Shown here: piece after piece, positions 54,043 through 58,813 of the stretch
How the letters are laid out: each line of letters opens with the position of its first letter
How positions within the stretch are numbered: position 1 is the first letter of the stretch
Source of the DNA: an uncultured Clostridia bacterium
GTDB taxonomy: Bacteria; Bacillota; Clostridia; Oscillospirales; Acutalibacteraceae
DNA length: 64,000 nt
Assembly (NCBI GenBank): GCA_945876745.1
Contig: CAMCPL010000005.1
Span: forward strand, 62,001 to 126,000
Reading direction: 5' to 3'
Program-made: the position numbers and the translations under genes
Notes under the pieces: generated by a model
Told to the model about the DNA's origin: nothing
The model's database searches: none
What the model saw: the letters and a program-made list of their open reading frames with translations, nothing else

Positions 54043-54071
54043 GTGACAAACGGTAATATATATGTTATAAT
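54043..54071 (+). promoter_or_regulatory. sigma-A promoter of the six-gene membrane operon
   Basis: GTGACA, 17 bp, TATAAT, about 105 bp before the first start codon. Confidence 0.6.
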
Positions 54072-54177: not shown

Positions 54178-54402
54178 ATGGAAAAAAATAATCAAACTGA
54201 CGCTCTAAAGCGCGATTTGAGAGTCAGAGGAATTGTTATTCCGATAATATTTGCTATTGTAACGGTTATTATATGCGTTATTATCAGCACCTCACATCTT
54301 GATATTTTTCCAAGCGGAATGCATCACGATTCGCTTACAACAACTGTAACGGAAACAACGGAGTTTAACGAAAATGAATTTTCACGTGTCATCAAAAATT
54401 AA
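54178..54402 (+). CDS. short single-pass membrane protein (gene A)
   Basis: A 74-aa protein. LKRDLRVRGIVIPIIFAIVT begins one transmembrane helix (about 18-40) and is followed by a short Thr-rich external tail. The start resembles the start of the gene at 56197 (KKDLLIKGIVLPL), so the two look like diverged paralogues, this one lacking the external domain. AAAAGGACAGCGACT precedes the ATG. It overlaps the next gene by 29 bp. Not a recognised family. Confidence 0.7.
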   Translation: MEKNNQTDALKRDLRVRGIVIPIIFAIVTVIICVIISTSHLDIFPSGMHHDSLTTTVTETTEFNENEFSRVIKN

Positions 54403-55333
54403 CAGAACAATTACGGACATTGTTCTTGCACTTTTGATTTTTGTGTTTTTTATGATGGCGGTTATGTCGCCGACTATCGGTAACGCTCATTTTTACGGCT
54501 TTGCACTTAATGATGCAACAGTAACTACTATGCTGCAAGACAAGCTGAACGAGCAAACGCAGGAGATTGCCGCAAAAACGGGAATAGAAGAAAAGGCATT
54601 TGAATTTGCTGTGGGTCAGAATAAAATCAGCACCATTCAGCGAGAAATTGTAAAGTCTTCTTTCAGCGGAGCAAACTATGACTATTCCGACAGCGCAAAT
54701 ATCGAAAGCTGCTATACCGACGGAATAAGAGAATATTACCGCTATAACGGTATGGAGCTTGACGAAGCGGCGTTGGAAATGGCTGTGCCTATGGCGTGCC
54801 GAGCGTTCAATTCCGTTATGGGCATAGAAAATAACCGTGAGTTTAGGACTTTTACCTACTTTTTAGGCAAGATATCAATCATTCTCGCCGTTGCGCTGTT
54901 GATACTGATTTTGGCGCTCGGCTTCAGAGTGTTCAGCCTTTCCGGCGGAAGAACAAAAATGCTCAGCCATTATGCCTGCTCGTTTATCAGCGCAGGCGCG
55001 GCACTCGTTTTGCTTTTTCTTGTAAACGCTCTTACAAGATTTAGCGACAACTTGTATCTGACAAATAACGACGGCTTGAACTATGCTCTGGCAAGTGGCT
55101 TTAACGCTTACTTTCTTATTCAGGCGTGCTTCGGTGCGGCGCTCATTATTGCAGGTGCAAGTATGCTCGGATATGTTTATAAGTATTATACCGACAAATT
55201 CCGTAAGCAAAAGCAGGAAAGGGATATTAATAAAACCCTTTATGTCAAGCTTGAAGACGGAGATAAAACTATCGGTGAGCTTGCAAGCAATGCAAGGCAA
55301 AAACAGAACAATCGAAACGATAAGGAGAACTGA
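54374..55333 (+). CDS. four-helix membrane protein with external domain (gene B)
   Basis: A 319-aa protein I do not recognise. TM1 at about 12-31, an external helical domain to about 160, then three helices (about 165-188, 198-222, 245-272) and a charged cytoplasmic tail (KFRKQKQERDINK, DKTIGELASNARQKQNNRND). It aligns with the product of 56757: both have HFYGFALND/SFYEKQFSND after TM1, and a YYRYNGMELDEAALEMA / YLDSNGYEYSTDAVYNA block ending in VMGI/TVGI. CGGAG lies 10 bp before the ATG. Its pairing with gene A repeats the 56197-56757 pair. Confidence 0.75.
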   Translation: MNFHVSSKINRTITDIVLALLIFVFFMMAVMSPTIGNAHFYGFALNDATVTTMLQDKLNEQTQEIAAKTGIEEKAFEFAVGQNKISTIQREIVKSSFSGANYDYSDSANIESCYTDGIREYYRYNGMELDEAALEMAVPMACRAFNSVMGIENNREFRTFTYFLGKISIILAVALLILILALGFRVFSLSGGRTKMLSHYACSFISAGAALVLLFLVNALTRFSDNLYLTNNDGLNYALASGFNAYFLIQACFGAALIIAGASMLGYVYKYYTDKFRKQKQERDINKTLYVKLEDGDKTIGELASNARQKQNNRNDKEN

Positions 55334-55335
55334 TA

Positions 55336-56169
55336 ATGGAATTATTACAGGCTTTTGAGGATATACAAAAAAATCTTGAAAATGTAAATAAAGACCTCGG
55401 CTTTTCAAGAAAGTCGCAGGACGAAAGCTCAATAACCTTTAAGGGCGAAAAGGGAATATACCGCCTTAACTATGACAGCGAAATAGGCGTTATCATGCTT
55501 GATGTCGCTTATGACGATAACGGTGAGCAAACCGAATATAATACTGTTTCGAAGAGCCTTTTTGAGCTTGACGTAATCGACGCAAGAGATATTAAATCAA
55601 TCTCAAATGAGGTTTCGGACGAGCTTGAAAGACTATTTAAGGTGAAGAAGCCCGTTAATCTCGATAAGGTAAAAATGCCGAAATCCGTATCAAGAACAAA
55701 GGCGAAAAACGGAGTCATCAGCTATGATGCAGACAGCCTTGCAAATCGTTTCGGTGCGCTTTACCCTGAGTTTAAGGATATAATTAAGGCAAATGTTGTT
55801 GAATACGGCGACTTTTTGCCTGAAGAATTTTTTGTTAATTACGGAACTCCGAAGGTGCTTGATGTAATCAAAAACGGTACAAAGGCAGAGCAGAAAAAGC
55901 TTTTCAAGATGCTCGGCGAGGTTTTTGAGGACGGCACAAACGAGGTTCAGGATATTATCGCAGTAACTATTTTAGGCGAAATGAAAAACGATAAGCAGAT
56001 GATGAGCGTTGCCGATGAATATATGAGCGATTATATGGCGGGTGCCGTTCACGAGGTTAATAAGCTTACTGCAAAGAAAAACCGTTTTACCCGTAAGCTT
56101 CAAAATCCTCCTGTTTACAAGCCGAAGAAGAAAAAATCCTTCAGCATTTCAAATCAGCTGGGACAGTAA
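55336..56169 (+). CDS. soluble protein of the membrane operon (gene C), unknown
   Basis: A 277-aa cytoplasmic protein. Residues 1-100 are a mixed alpha/beta domain (GEKGIYRLNYDSEIGVIMLD), residues 130-245 are helical, and the tail is strongly basic (AKKNRFTRKL, YKPKKKKSFS). No signal, Cys or catalytic motif is seen. It starts 2 bp after gene B, so translation is coupled. It may be a cytoplasmic adaptor for the membrane pairs (inference). Confidence 0.7.
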   Translation: MELLQAFEDIQKNLENVNKDLGFSRKSQDESSITFKGEKGIYRLNYDSEIGVIMLDVAYDDNGEQTEYNTVSKSLFELDVIDARDIKSISNEVSDELERLFKVKKPVNLDKVKMPKSVSRTKAKNGVISYDADSLANRFGALYPEFKDIIKANVVEYGDFLPEEFFVNYGTPKVLDVIKNGTKAEQKKLFKMLGEVFEDGTNEVQDIIAVTILGEMKNDKQMMSVADEYMSDYMAGAVHEVNKLTAKKNRFTRKLQNPPVYKPKKKKSFSISNQLGQ

Positions 56170-56196
56170 TTTATCTCATTTACGGAGAAAGCGACT

Positions 56197-56757
56197 ATGA
56201 AAAAGGACTTGTTAATTAAGGGAATTGTGCTTCCTTTATGTATAGGTGCGGCTTTGGGCGTTGCTTTCTTTTTGTTTGCCCTTATGTCGGACAACTCTCT
56301 TGTTGTAAGCGAGCAGGGCGCTGTTGCTTATTTTGACAGCGACGAAAAGGAAAACGCTTCAAGCTCAAATAACACCGTCGATATGAAAAGCGGTGAAATT
56401 ATCGGAAAAATTGCTTTCGGCAATGATGAAATGAATGTTATATATGACGGGGGATATTCATCTTTGTCGGAGTGTATTTCTCTTGAACACGGCTGTACAT
56501 TCTCTCAAGGGGGAATCGGCTTTTACCGTGCTGTTGAGAACAATATTTCTCCCTTTGATAAATCCGAAATAACCGTGAAAACCGAAAGCGGAGAATATAG
56601 ATATGTTTATTCTCACTCGTTTACCGCATCAAATGAAAATGCTGTTTTTTCCGACAACTCAATAAAGGGAAGCGGTATTGTGATTTATTACCAAGAAGCT
56701 GAAAATTACGGCTTTGATACGCAGTATGAGGCGCTTGTATATCGGGAGGTAGAATAA
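56197..56757 (+). CDS. membrane-anchored protein with sortase-like domain (gene A')
   Basis: A 186-aa protein with one N-terminal helix (about 8-30) and an external beta-rich domain. The order GEIIGKIAFGNDEMNVIYDG, then SLEHGC..GGIGFYRAV, then SEITVKTESGEYRYVYSHSF resembles the strand order of class sortases (G-x-I-x-I-P, H-x-G, G-D-x-I-x-V-x-T-x-x-G-x-Y-x-Y). The C-terminal Cys and Arg of the sortase active site are not found, so it would be inactive. The similarity is weak and needs structure prediction. It is tied to gene B' by a TAATG overlap. Confidence 0.6.
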   Translation: MKKDLLIKGIVLPLCIGAALGVAFFLFALMSDNSLVVSEQGAVAYFDSDEKENASSSNNTVDMKSGEIIGKIAFGNDEMNVIYDGGYSSLSECISLEHGCTFSQGGIGFYRAVENNISPFDKSEITVKTESGEYRYVYSHSFTASNENAVFSDNSIKGSGIVIYYQEAENYGFDTQYEALVYREVE

Positions 56758-57623
56758 TGGGACTTAAATCCACAAGACGTATTTTGTCAATTGTATTCTC
56801 CGTAATACTTGCTTTTTCGCTTTTTGTCAGCGCGAGCTGCATTATGTCTAACCTTACTGTATCAAACAGGAGCTTTTACGAAAAACAATTTTCAAATGAT
56901 AGCATTGTAAACGAGTGCAACAGACAGCTTGACGAAAAGCTGAAAACCCTTGCTATAAAAAGTAATATTCCGTTTGAGGTTTTCGAGAGCGTAAAAAAGC
57001 AGTACGATACGTCGCAGAGCCTTGAACAGGCAACCTCGTATTTGTTCGATGAAAATGATTCAACTCTTAATAACGAAGTAAGATTGAAGTATTTTTACAG
57101 TATTTGTACCGAATATCTTGATTCAAACGGTTATGAATATTCAACCGACGCCGTATATAACGCCTGTGCTGAAGCGGCGCAGATTTACAGTGATACGGTA
57201 GGAATTCATAATCTTGAATACTTGAATAATGATATTTCAGCACGCAGAACCTCAAATACAAAAAAAATAAGTATATTTCTTCTTGCGGGTGCAATTTGTA
57301 TTGTGCTTACACTTTATATGTACAAAAAGAAAACTGATGCAATGATTTATGTCTCGTCGGGAATAATCGGCGGCGGTATTGCAGGCGTGATTTCCTTTTT
57401 GTTACAGCTTGTGTTCAAGGTTGGTGCGAGTTATGATTTTGAACCGCTTGTTTATTCGCAGACATTCGCAAAAATGTATAAGCTGTATCTTGTATACGGA
57501 ATTTCGGCAAGTGCCGTGCTTACATTAATCGGAATTGCCGTGCTTGTTGTTACCGTCAAGATTATTAACCGTGATGAATTTAGAAAGAATACAAGATTTT
57601 TCAAGGTTGTCGATAAGCTGTAA
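56757..57623 (+). CDS. four-helix membrane protein with external domain (gene B')
   Basis: A 288-aa paralogue of the protein at 54374: TM1 (about 9-30), an external helical domain of about 125 residues, then three helices (about 157-178, 184-208, 228-252) and a short basic tail (INRDEFRKNTRFFKVVDKL). The external part has no metal or catalytic signature. It starts on the last base of gene A' stop codon. Confidence 0.75.
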   Translation: MGLKSTRRILSIVFSVILAFSLFVSASCIMSNLTVSNRSFYEKQFSNDSIVNECNRQLDEKLKTLAIKSNIPFEVFESVKKQYDTSQSLEQATSYLFDENDSTLNNEVRLKYFYSICTEYLDSNGYEYSTDAVYNACAEAAQIYSDTVGIHNLEYLNNDISARRTSNTKKISIFLLAGAICIVLTLYMYKKKTDAMIYVSSGIIGGGIAGVISFLLQLVFKVGASYDFEPLVYSQTFAKMYKLYLVYGISASAVLTLIGIAVLVVTVKIINRDEFRKNTRFFKVVDKL

Positions 57624-57673
57624 AAATGTAACGACAAAGAAAAATCGGCATATTATGAAACGGTGGTGATTAT

Positions 57674-58789
57674 GTGCAGTTTTTAACGCAGTATCTAAAG
57701 CAGTACGGCGGCTTTACCTTTGATGAAAAAGCGTTTTGCGAGCTTGACGCACTTGTTTTCAGTCAGCTTGCGTATATTGATTTTAACGGCGTTGTTGAAA
57801 ACGGAGAAATTACAATAGAAAGCGCCTCTTCAAATTATTATTTGCTTCATTCACAGCAGGAAATTGACTCGTTTATCGGTATCAGCGAAAAGGCGGTTAG
57901 ACTTCTTTCGCTTTGCGCAAAAACGCTCCGCTTCGGTCAGGTAAGAATTTGTAATTATGTAAATAATATCAACGACGAGATTGATAAGCAATTTTCGGGA
58001 GTCGAGTTTTTGTTCGGCGACGATGTGGTAGTTGCTTTTCGAGGTACGGATATTACGGTTACCGGCGTTAAGGAATCGGCAATGCTCAGCTATATGTTTC
58101 CCGTACCTGCCCAAATTGAAGCGCTCCATTATTTTCAGGAAAGCGCTATGACCTGTAACGGCAGGGTGTATGCCTGCGGTCATTCAAAGGGCGGCAATCT
58201 TGCCGTGTTTGCCTGTGTGAATTGCTCTAATTCACTTAAAAAGCACATAGCGGGTGTTTATGAATTTGACGCTCCGGGCTTTCCGAAATGGTTTTTTGAG
58301 CGGTATGATTATGCTCAAATAAAGGATAGGCTTCATTTTTATGCGCCTCAAAGCAGTATTGTTGGCAGAATGTTGACCCATGACGCCGTGCCCGTCGTTG
58401 TTCAAAGTACAAACAGCGGTCTCAAGCAGCATCAGGTTTCCTCGTGGGTTATTGATAACGGATGCTTTGAGGAATGTGAAAGCTTCGACTCTTTTTCGGA
58501 TTACGTCGCAGATTACATTAATGATTTGATTGAATATGTAGGAGAGGACGATTTGGAGGTTTTCTTCGATACTCTCGAATTTGTTGCCGAAAATTTGCAG
58601 ATAAACGATTATTACGATTTGAAAACGATTGATTTTCGCCGTATTTCTCGCCTTGTTGATAAGGTTCAAAATACCGACGAGGCTCAAAAGGAACGCTTTA
58701 AGCAAATTTTGAAAAAGGCTTTTTCCGACTTTACCCGCGAATATATCAAATCTCATTTTCAAAAGCTGAATAATAAAAAAACGCCGTAA
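57674..58789 (+). CDS. DUF2974 (Mbeg1-like) lipase-type alpha/beta hydrolase
   Basis: A 371-aa soluble hydrolase. VVVAFRGTD is the oxyanion/strand block of lipase class-3-like folds, ACGHSKGGNLAVF the nucleophile elbow (G-x-S-x-G), and DAPGF, SIVGRMLTHD and KQHQVSSW supply the Asp/His region. It has no signal peptide. Start is GTG 57674, since the ATG at 57672 runs straight into a stop. It closes the six-gene operon 50 bp after gene B'. It probably acts on acyl lipids or esters at the inner membrane face. Confidence 0.85.
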   Translation: MQFLTQYLKQYGGFTFDEKAFCELDALVFSQLAYIDFNGVVENGEITIESASSNYYLLHSQQEIDSFIGISEKAVRLLSLCAKTLRFGQVRICNYVNNINDEIDKQFSGVEFLFGDDVVVAFRGTDITVTGVKESAMLSYMFPVPAQIEALHYFQESAMTCNGRVYACGHSKGGNLAVFACVNCSNSLKKHIAGVYEFDAPGFPKWFFERYDYAQIKDRLHFYAPQSSIVGRMLTHDAVPVVVQSTNSGLKQHQVSSWVIDNGCFEECESFDSFSDYVADYINDLIEYVGEDDLEVFFDTLEFVAENLQINDYYDLKTIDFRRISRLVDKVQNTDEAQKERFKQILKKAFSDFTREYIKSHFQKLNNKKTP

Positions 58790-58813
58790 CGGTTTGCCCG
58801 TTGCGGCGTTTTT
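58775..58813. terminator. bidirectional terminator
   Basis: Stem ACGCCGTAACGG / CCGTTGCGGCGT (one G-U) with A- and T-tracts on both sides. Confidence 0.85.

Follow-up and report, generated by a model that had tools for sequence, protein, structure and literature searches.

A six-gene locus with two related gene pairs

We analyzed a 64,000-nucleotide (nt) stretch of DNA from an uncultured Clostridia bacterium (contig CAMCPL010000005.1), hereafter the window, to whose positions all coordinates refer. Six tightly coupled open reading frames (ORFs) lie on its plus strand at 54178–58789, and we call them A, B, C, A′, B′ and D in their order. An earlier reading of the letters alone, hereafter the sequence-only reading, had taken them for a membrane operon that feeds or controls a hydrolase, D. 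We conclude that the locus is not a hydrolase-control operon: it holds two modules, each of a pseudosortase-type gene and a membrane partner, beside an old gene, C. Its features are as follows (aa, amino acids; TM, transmembrane segment).

Promoter-like site, 54043..54071, plus strand: GTGACA-17 nt-TATAAT with TG before the second hexamer, 11 of 12 consensus positions; a consensus match only
A, 54178..54402, plus strand: 74 aa, single-pass membrane peptide; a stub at the place of the sortase-like gene, with the anchor and without the sortase domain
B, 54374..55333, plus strand: 319 aa, four-TM partner protein of the 'stub-B' branch
C, 55336..56169, plus strand: 277 aa, cytoplasmic; DUF7674 domain at residues 137–232, lysine-rich tail
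A′, 56197..56757, plus strand: 186 aa, signal anchor, then a degenerate sortase domain that lacks the His/Cys/Arg triad (pseudosortase)
B′, 56757..57623, plus strand: 288 aa, four-TM partner of A′
D, 57674..58789, plus strand: 371 aa, GTG start; Mbeg1-like (DUF2974) alpha/beta hydrolase with a GHSKG nucleophile elbow
Intrinsic terminator hairpin, 58777..58813, plus strand: 16 pairs, −25.1 kcal/mol, z −5.85

The coupling is as the sequence-only reading described it: A and B overlap by 29 nt, gaps of 2 and 27 nt separate B from C and C from A′, A′ and B′ have one base in common, and 50 nt lie between B′ and D. That reading also placed all six genes under one promoter and a strong terminator. The terminator holds up by folding, although it is missing from the list of a simple terminator scan; the promoter-like site matches consensus well, but sites of this kind are not enriched in the region overall (15 against 12.8 ± 3.5 expected from shuffles). 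Hydropathy gives one TM each for A and A′, four each for B and B′ with a loop of 137–140 aa after the first (TM1), whereas C and D have none. The locus occupies a conserved place in the chromosome, beside genes that we take to be argS and ddl or murI; the names serC and serA that we used for other genes in the analysis are likewise assigned on our own reading of the sequences.

A′ descends from sortases

A′ has a membrane anchor (TM at residues 10–28) followed by an external part of 158 aa, as judged by hydropathy. In profile–profile comparison (hhalign), the A′ line matched a set of 21 intact sortases from other genera with E 2.2e-14. Because membrane segments can match each other at E-values of 2.8e-4 and 8.5e-4 (see below), the comparison was rerun with the external part without the anchor, and the match persisted at E 3.4e-10. 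A′ also matched two further degenerate lines of the genus, the line that we call c6 at E 1.1e-17 and a third line at E 1.5e-11. In controls with substrate proteins (see below), B and C, the E-values for A′ ranged from 0.014 to 0.43, and those for c6 from 0.078 to 0.7.

The c6 paralogue encoded in the same genome as the window exceeds the cut-off of the Pfam family Sortase (PF04203; 26.6 bits) with 33.4 bits in hmmscan and 33.9 in a genome search. At E up to 1, 10 of the 12 proteins of the c6 line match this family, as do 3 of the 22 members of the A′ line (best 0.001), the window's own A′ not being one of them. Against sequences in the Protein Data Bank (PDB), the best matches of the A′ profile are class A sortases (E 7.4e-4 and 7.7e-4). 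We regard sortase ancestry and a pseudoenzyme state of the A′ line as very probable.

A has its N-terminal start in common with A′, whose profile it matches with about 20 bits; it is a membrane anchor with a short tail, and the external domain of A′ is absent. Each of the ten loci in which B lies ahead of C has such an A-like stub, 57–103 aa long (86 aa at L247) and overlapping the beginning of B, and the stub is therefore no assembly accident. Its place and its short match suggest that it arose by truncation.

The catalytic triad is lost throughout the genus

Among 74 distinct A-type proteins of at least 150 aa from the window's genus, none carries the His/Cys/Arg triad, as checked with hmmalign and an independent motif search, and none combines the motifs [GA]H and [TS]C. 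The 74 include the proteins of L199 and L202, two of the 25 rows of a comparison set that belong to this genus; the comparison sortases L099, L100–L103, L104, L118, L119, L121, L122, L124 and L126 are left out of the catalytic count. For A′ itself the statement rests on the alignment of its 22 members and the motif check, the hmmalign columns being unreliable there and many A′ being unscored by the intact profile; no His, Cys or Arg column in that alignment is invariant or conserved at 90%. In the third degenerate line, whose members include L249, L252, L254, L256 and L259 among others, the His column holds Tyr in 15 of 19 rows. At L199, L200 and L202, the three loci with flanks in view, this line stands between what are presumably an IlvD-like gene and an ABC-transporter ATPase gene.

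Elsewhere the triad is mostly kept: 22 of 25 sortase–B pairs in other genera retain His, Cys and Arg, the degenerate ones being L159, L200 and L143. At L159 (1462–3147), in another genus, the triad positions read Y, D and N, apparently a separate loss. L143, from genome G391 of a neighbouring genus, has its degenerate pair within a C-A′-B′ arrangement.

Intact sortase–B modules in other genera and families

A profile of B matches 33 of 150 genomes across the family, three of them from the window's genus, and we examined loci for 27 of the 30 others. A sortase-type gene adjoins B in 23 of the 26 loci L145–L170 (none was detected at L158, L165 and L170), and 22 of these 23 sortases keep His, Cys and Arg. 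Directly upstream of the sortase, 16 of the 22 intact loci encode a secreted protein with a sorting signal. At 15 of 21 intact loci these putative substrates are 183–260 aa long as called, some frames starting early or being cut by a contig edge, and they close with a motif resembling a sorting signal, followed by a TM and a basic tail. The motif is [IV]KxTG in 10 of the 15; the others have LKITG, LPPTG or IAKTG, or Asp for Gly (L156 and L167). L160 is a sixteenth substrate locus, with the motif IIQTG.

In other families of the class, the order substrate–sortase–B recurs at L307, L308 and L310, and sortase–B–substrate at L311; L314 has sortase–B with the sortase frame running to the end of the locus, and L309 is cut by a contig end. 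Across these modules (L145–L169, L307, L308, L310 and L311), which span many genera, the signals are mostly [IV]KxTG, and neither B nor the substrate matches a curated family. A class-wide search with B matched 31 of 391 genomes, many of them weakly. The B-like proteins at L315, L317 and L319 are larger (433–531 aa) because their external part carries a long insertion; no adjoining sortase was detected. Four intact relatives scored best against NCBIfam class D sortase models, at 67.9–112.7 bits, below the cut-offs of 165 (NF033746) and 140 (NF058671).

We considered whether the substrate proteins are themselves homologous to B and rejected it: the two hhalign matches, one of 20 columns (E 2.8e-4, probability 41%) and one of 71 (E 8.5e-4, 24%), set a signal peptide against TM1.

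B and B′ are members of one partner family

Single-sequence searches between B and B′ gave E 1.4e-6 and 2.4e-6, and hhalign aligned their profiles at E 1.7e-29 over 277 columns; by this comparison, one of those through which the sequence-only reading said that it could be refuted, B and B′ are paralogues. Together with the common start of A and A′, this bears out its proposal of two homologous A–B pairs. The same genome holds a third pair, c6 with its own B, on another contig (L076:7414–9010, contig C10). That pair consists of a full-length degenerate sortase and B, and adjoins a gene that we take to encode a pyruvate:ferredoxin oxidoreductase (PFOR)-like protein.

No curated family in Pfam or NCBIfam scores above its cut-off for B, and matches in Pfam, NCBIfam and PDB sequences are scattered and weak, none being common to more than 2 of 24 members. 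We judged two of them to be chance: SpoIIGA for B (E 0.001, below the cut-off) and lipoprotein signal peptidase for B′ (E 7.3e-4, 19.6 bits against a cut-off of 177).

A tree of 88 B proteins, a quick one with long branches and midpoint rooting, separates B′, c6-B and the third line as three groups with support of 100, 99 and 100. Stub-B is joined to c6-B (99), the stub-B group itself being weakly supported (57). The tree requires at least three changes between an intact and a degenerate partner.

The pairs are widespread in the genus and under selection

Within the window's genus, the B profile matches 42 of 60 genomes. The 74 loci read there include 35 with a complete C-A′-B′, each from a different genome, and in 10 of these B lies directly ahead of C. 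The c6-B pair stands alone at 18 loci and the third line (dgA-dgB) at 19; L091 has A′-B′ with C lost to a contig end, and L260, at a contig end, holds nothing but fragments of B′. Apart from L260, every locus (73 of 74) has an A-type gene or a stub ahead of B, which makes a heteromeric envelope complex plausible. To this extent the sequence-only reading, which had proposed such a complex as feeding or controlling D, stands; the link to D is unsupported (see below).

The substrates of the sister genera are not evident here. A profile of them found no convincing match in the 60 genomes, and none at all in the window's genome; 20 of the 60 match weakly (up to 26.2 bits), mostly through signal peptides of other proteins. 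One of these, L291, has an LPxTG-like C-terminal signal and is otherwise unlike the substrates.

Nonsynonymous-to-synonymous rate ratios (dN/dS, Nei–Gojobori) were determined against the two nearest relatives, at L062 and L063. Against L062 the ratio was 0.18 for A, 0.05 for both B and C, 0.19 for A′ and 0.12 for B′; against L063 it was 0.12 for A, 0.07 for both B and C, 0.21 for A′ and 0.12 for B′. Several of the dS values for L063 are saturated, and A offers only 73 compared codons and overlaps B. Over 18 loci, A′ and B′ have mean identities of only 0.25 and 0.28, and C one of 0.65. Over the same 18 loci, in favour of a partnership of the two, A′ and B′ distances correlate beyond what C explains (partial r 0.53; none of 2,000 permutations as high), with shared ancestry corrected through C only. 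The pairs are thus kept, although A′ and B′ diverge fast. The genus maintains them, in three paralogous lines, under purifying selection.

Other genes accompany B′ at some loci. At L074, L075 and L093 a gene for 1440–1450 aa follows B′ directly; its product groups with repeat-rich surface-type proteins. At L066, L067, L090, L091 and L094 a secreted-looking protein of 409–449 aa, presumably resembling G5/3D-domain proteins, is encoded near B′.

C is an older gene that A′-B′ joined

C scores 37.5 bits against DUF7674 (PF24722; cut-off 27), and a comparison with PDB sequences found nothing (best E 0.023). C is like other DUF7674 proteins by profile and differs from them in its N-terminal part and lysine-rich tail. 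The sequence-only reading had called C a basic protein; its net charge is −3, and only the C-terminal tail is lysine-rich. C occurs in 85 of 150 family genomes, against 33 for B. Of 295 genomes sampled from the order, only 13 have it, every one of them in this family. In other genera, a ddl-type gene lies beside C at 13 of 37 loci (L130–L197), 12 of them without A–B genes in view, the exception being L173. The C-A′-B′ arrangement is found in the window's genus and in G391. The C gene is older than its association with A′-B′, which joined it in these two groups.

These observations bear on an alternative in which C-A′-B′ is a sensor of cell-wall status, with A′ sensing a precursor or peptide outside, B′ relaying the signal and C responding inside. 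Such a sensor would fit the contiguity of the three genes in 35 genomes of the genus and in G391, the adjoining gene that we take to be ddl or murI, and the cytoplasmic, strongly conserved nature of C. C, however, also stands beside ddl with no A–B genes in view and is spread far more widely through the family than B; no regulatory domain was recognised in it, and A′ and B′ diverge fast whereas C does not. We regard the sensor as unlikely.

D is a lineage-specific neighbour

The identification of D as a DUF2974-type hydrolase was correct: it scores 203.1 bits against Mbeg1-like (PF11187; cut-off 21.1), with GHSKG at residue 169. As a member of that family it shows nothing unusual; what sets it apart is its lineage-specific place beside B′.

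The sequence-only reading saw in the six genes a heteromeric envelope complex that feeds or controls D, perhaps for lipid signalling, defence or surface remodelling. In the window, D does lie on the same strand, a short gap downstream of B′ and before the terminator. Among the 27 C-A′-B′ loci that extend at least 500 nt past B′, however, D follows B′ only in the window (the other 8 of 35 end sooner), and D-family genes above the Pfam cut-off occur in 43 of the 60 genomes of the genus. They lie on other contigs than the B genes, many of these contigs being short, except in G005, where one is found on the contig of a c6-B pair, at a distance of about 50 kb. The sequence-only reading had also named linkage in relatives as a check, and there D parts from B′ and the other genes stay together.

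In the two nearest relatives the orthologue of D is close to a contig edge, 106 nt away in G474 (802 bits) and 207 nt away in G016 (622 bits), and is oriented as if linked. B′ is likewise at a contig edge in both, so that the assemblies break between B′ and the place where D would be expected (L335/L336 against L240/L065). D after B′ is seen in one genome and possible in three. A search with PADLOC, which detects defence systems, returned nothing for A, B, A′, B′ or D at E up to 1 and for C only a weak AbiEii match (14.8 bits, E 0.0034), and the site is a conserved housekeeping locus; the suggested defence role finds no support in either. D is a recent, lineage-specific neighbour outside the conserved unit, and an operon built around it is very unlikely.

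Probable pseudosortases with a retained membrane partner

The reading that we favour, and consider rather probable, is that A-B and A′-B′ are modules of a sortase and a membrane partner in which the sortase has turned pseudoenzyme, together making a non-catalytic envelope complex. The triad has been lost, yet the pair has been kept, duplicated and held under selection. This suggests that it has taken on a new role at the cell surface, one that needs no catalysis. A and B would form a membrane complex; in the ancestor, B may have presented the sortase with its substrate or with the cell-wall acceptor. The A′-B′ pair would most likely still bind such a ligand, either a C-terminal sorting peptide or a lipid-linked precursor of the cell wall, and leave it uncut, a function that we put forward only tentatively. 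It could thus serve as a non-catalytic envelope receptor, scaffold or chaperone, with the stub-A/B pair as a trimmed second copy, and C may read the A′-B′ complex from the cytoplasm. In its boldest form, a possible but doubtful one, this proposal holds that the genus has remade an anchoring machine as a set of envelope receptors that have no enzymatic activity. Its three pairs would bind sorting peptides or cell-wall precursors and leave them intact, with one branch trimmed to a membrane peptide and another connected to C as its cytoplasmic partner.

Several observations weigh against this proposal. The kinship of A′ to sortases runs through profiles and intermediates: the window's A′ alone reaches no Pfam family and has no NCBIfam class D match. 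The c6 profile finds a lectin (4gk9, E 9.3e-5) ahead of the first sortase in the PDB sequences (4d70, E 1.8e-4, which we take to be Clostridium perfringens SrtD), with further sortases after it. A substrate gene directly upstream is absent at 6 of the 22 intact loci. Many B-like matches in the class have no sortase detected within 1.5 kb, among them L313, L315–L320 and most of the weaker ones, so B can probably act without a sortase. The wider spread of C relative to B argues that C is independent of A–B. Finally, the loss of substrates in the genus means that one profile found no convincing match in genomes that are partly incomplete.

Two further alternatives fare worse than those discussed above. 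The external part of the window's A′ does contain Cys93, Cys100, His98 and His140, through which it might still act as a transpeptidase or protease, but the 22 A′ proteins keep no such column and the genus offers no convincing substrate gene, and an active A′ is highly improbable. Least credible is that the pairs are decaying, functionless remnants of a lost anchoring system, since the lost triad, the copy reduced to an anchor and the fast divergence stand against dN/dS of 0.05–0.21 for A, B, C, A′ and B′, the stub included, a stub retained in all ten loci and three long-lived paralogous clades.

Relation to known systems

Pseudosortase–partner modules resemble class D sortases such as SrtD of Clostridium perfringens (PMC4498605) in combining an anchor with an external sortase domain, and the four intact relatives compared score nearest to class D. 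A′ and its paralogous lines differ in having no triad, and those four relatives remain under the class D cut-offs. The main text of PMC4498605 does not contain the term 'membrane protein'. The sister genera also resemble substrate–sortase clusters, whether for pili or for single substrates, in that genes for a sorting-signal protein and a sortase lie side by side with B; the modules described here include, in addition, a conserved four-TM protein. The window's genus departs from this pattern: its cluster has no catalytic sortase, and a substrate gene of this kind was not detected.

In the literature searched, which lay mostly outside subscription journals, we found no description of a pseudosortase and, among the matches listed, no membrane partner of a sortase; the term DUF7674 was absent. 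In the passages concerned, 'degenerate sortase' in PMC8615915 refers to a cleavage motif, and 'inactive sortase' in PMC3516528 to a mutated srtC.

A sortase line without its active site, whose partner has been kept and multiplied, is a natural experiment on the non-catalytic roles of the sortase domain. It also brings to light B, a membrane family without a name whose members stand beside intact sortases in several families of this class, and makes it testable whether such sortases work as complexes rather than alone. If the proposal is true, B would be the first membrane protein to be described as the dedicated partner of a sortase lineage.

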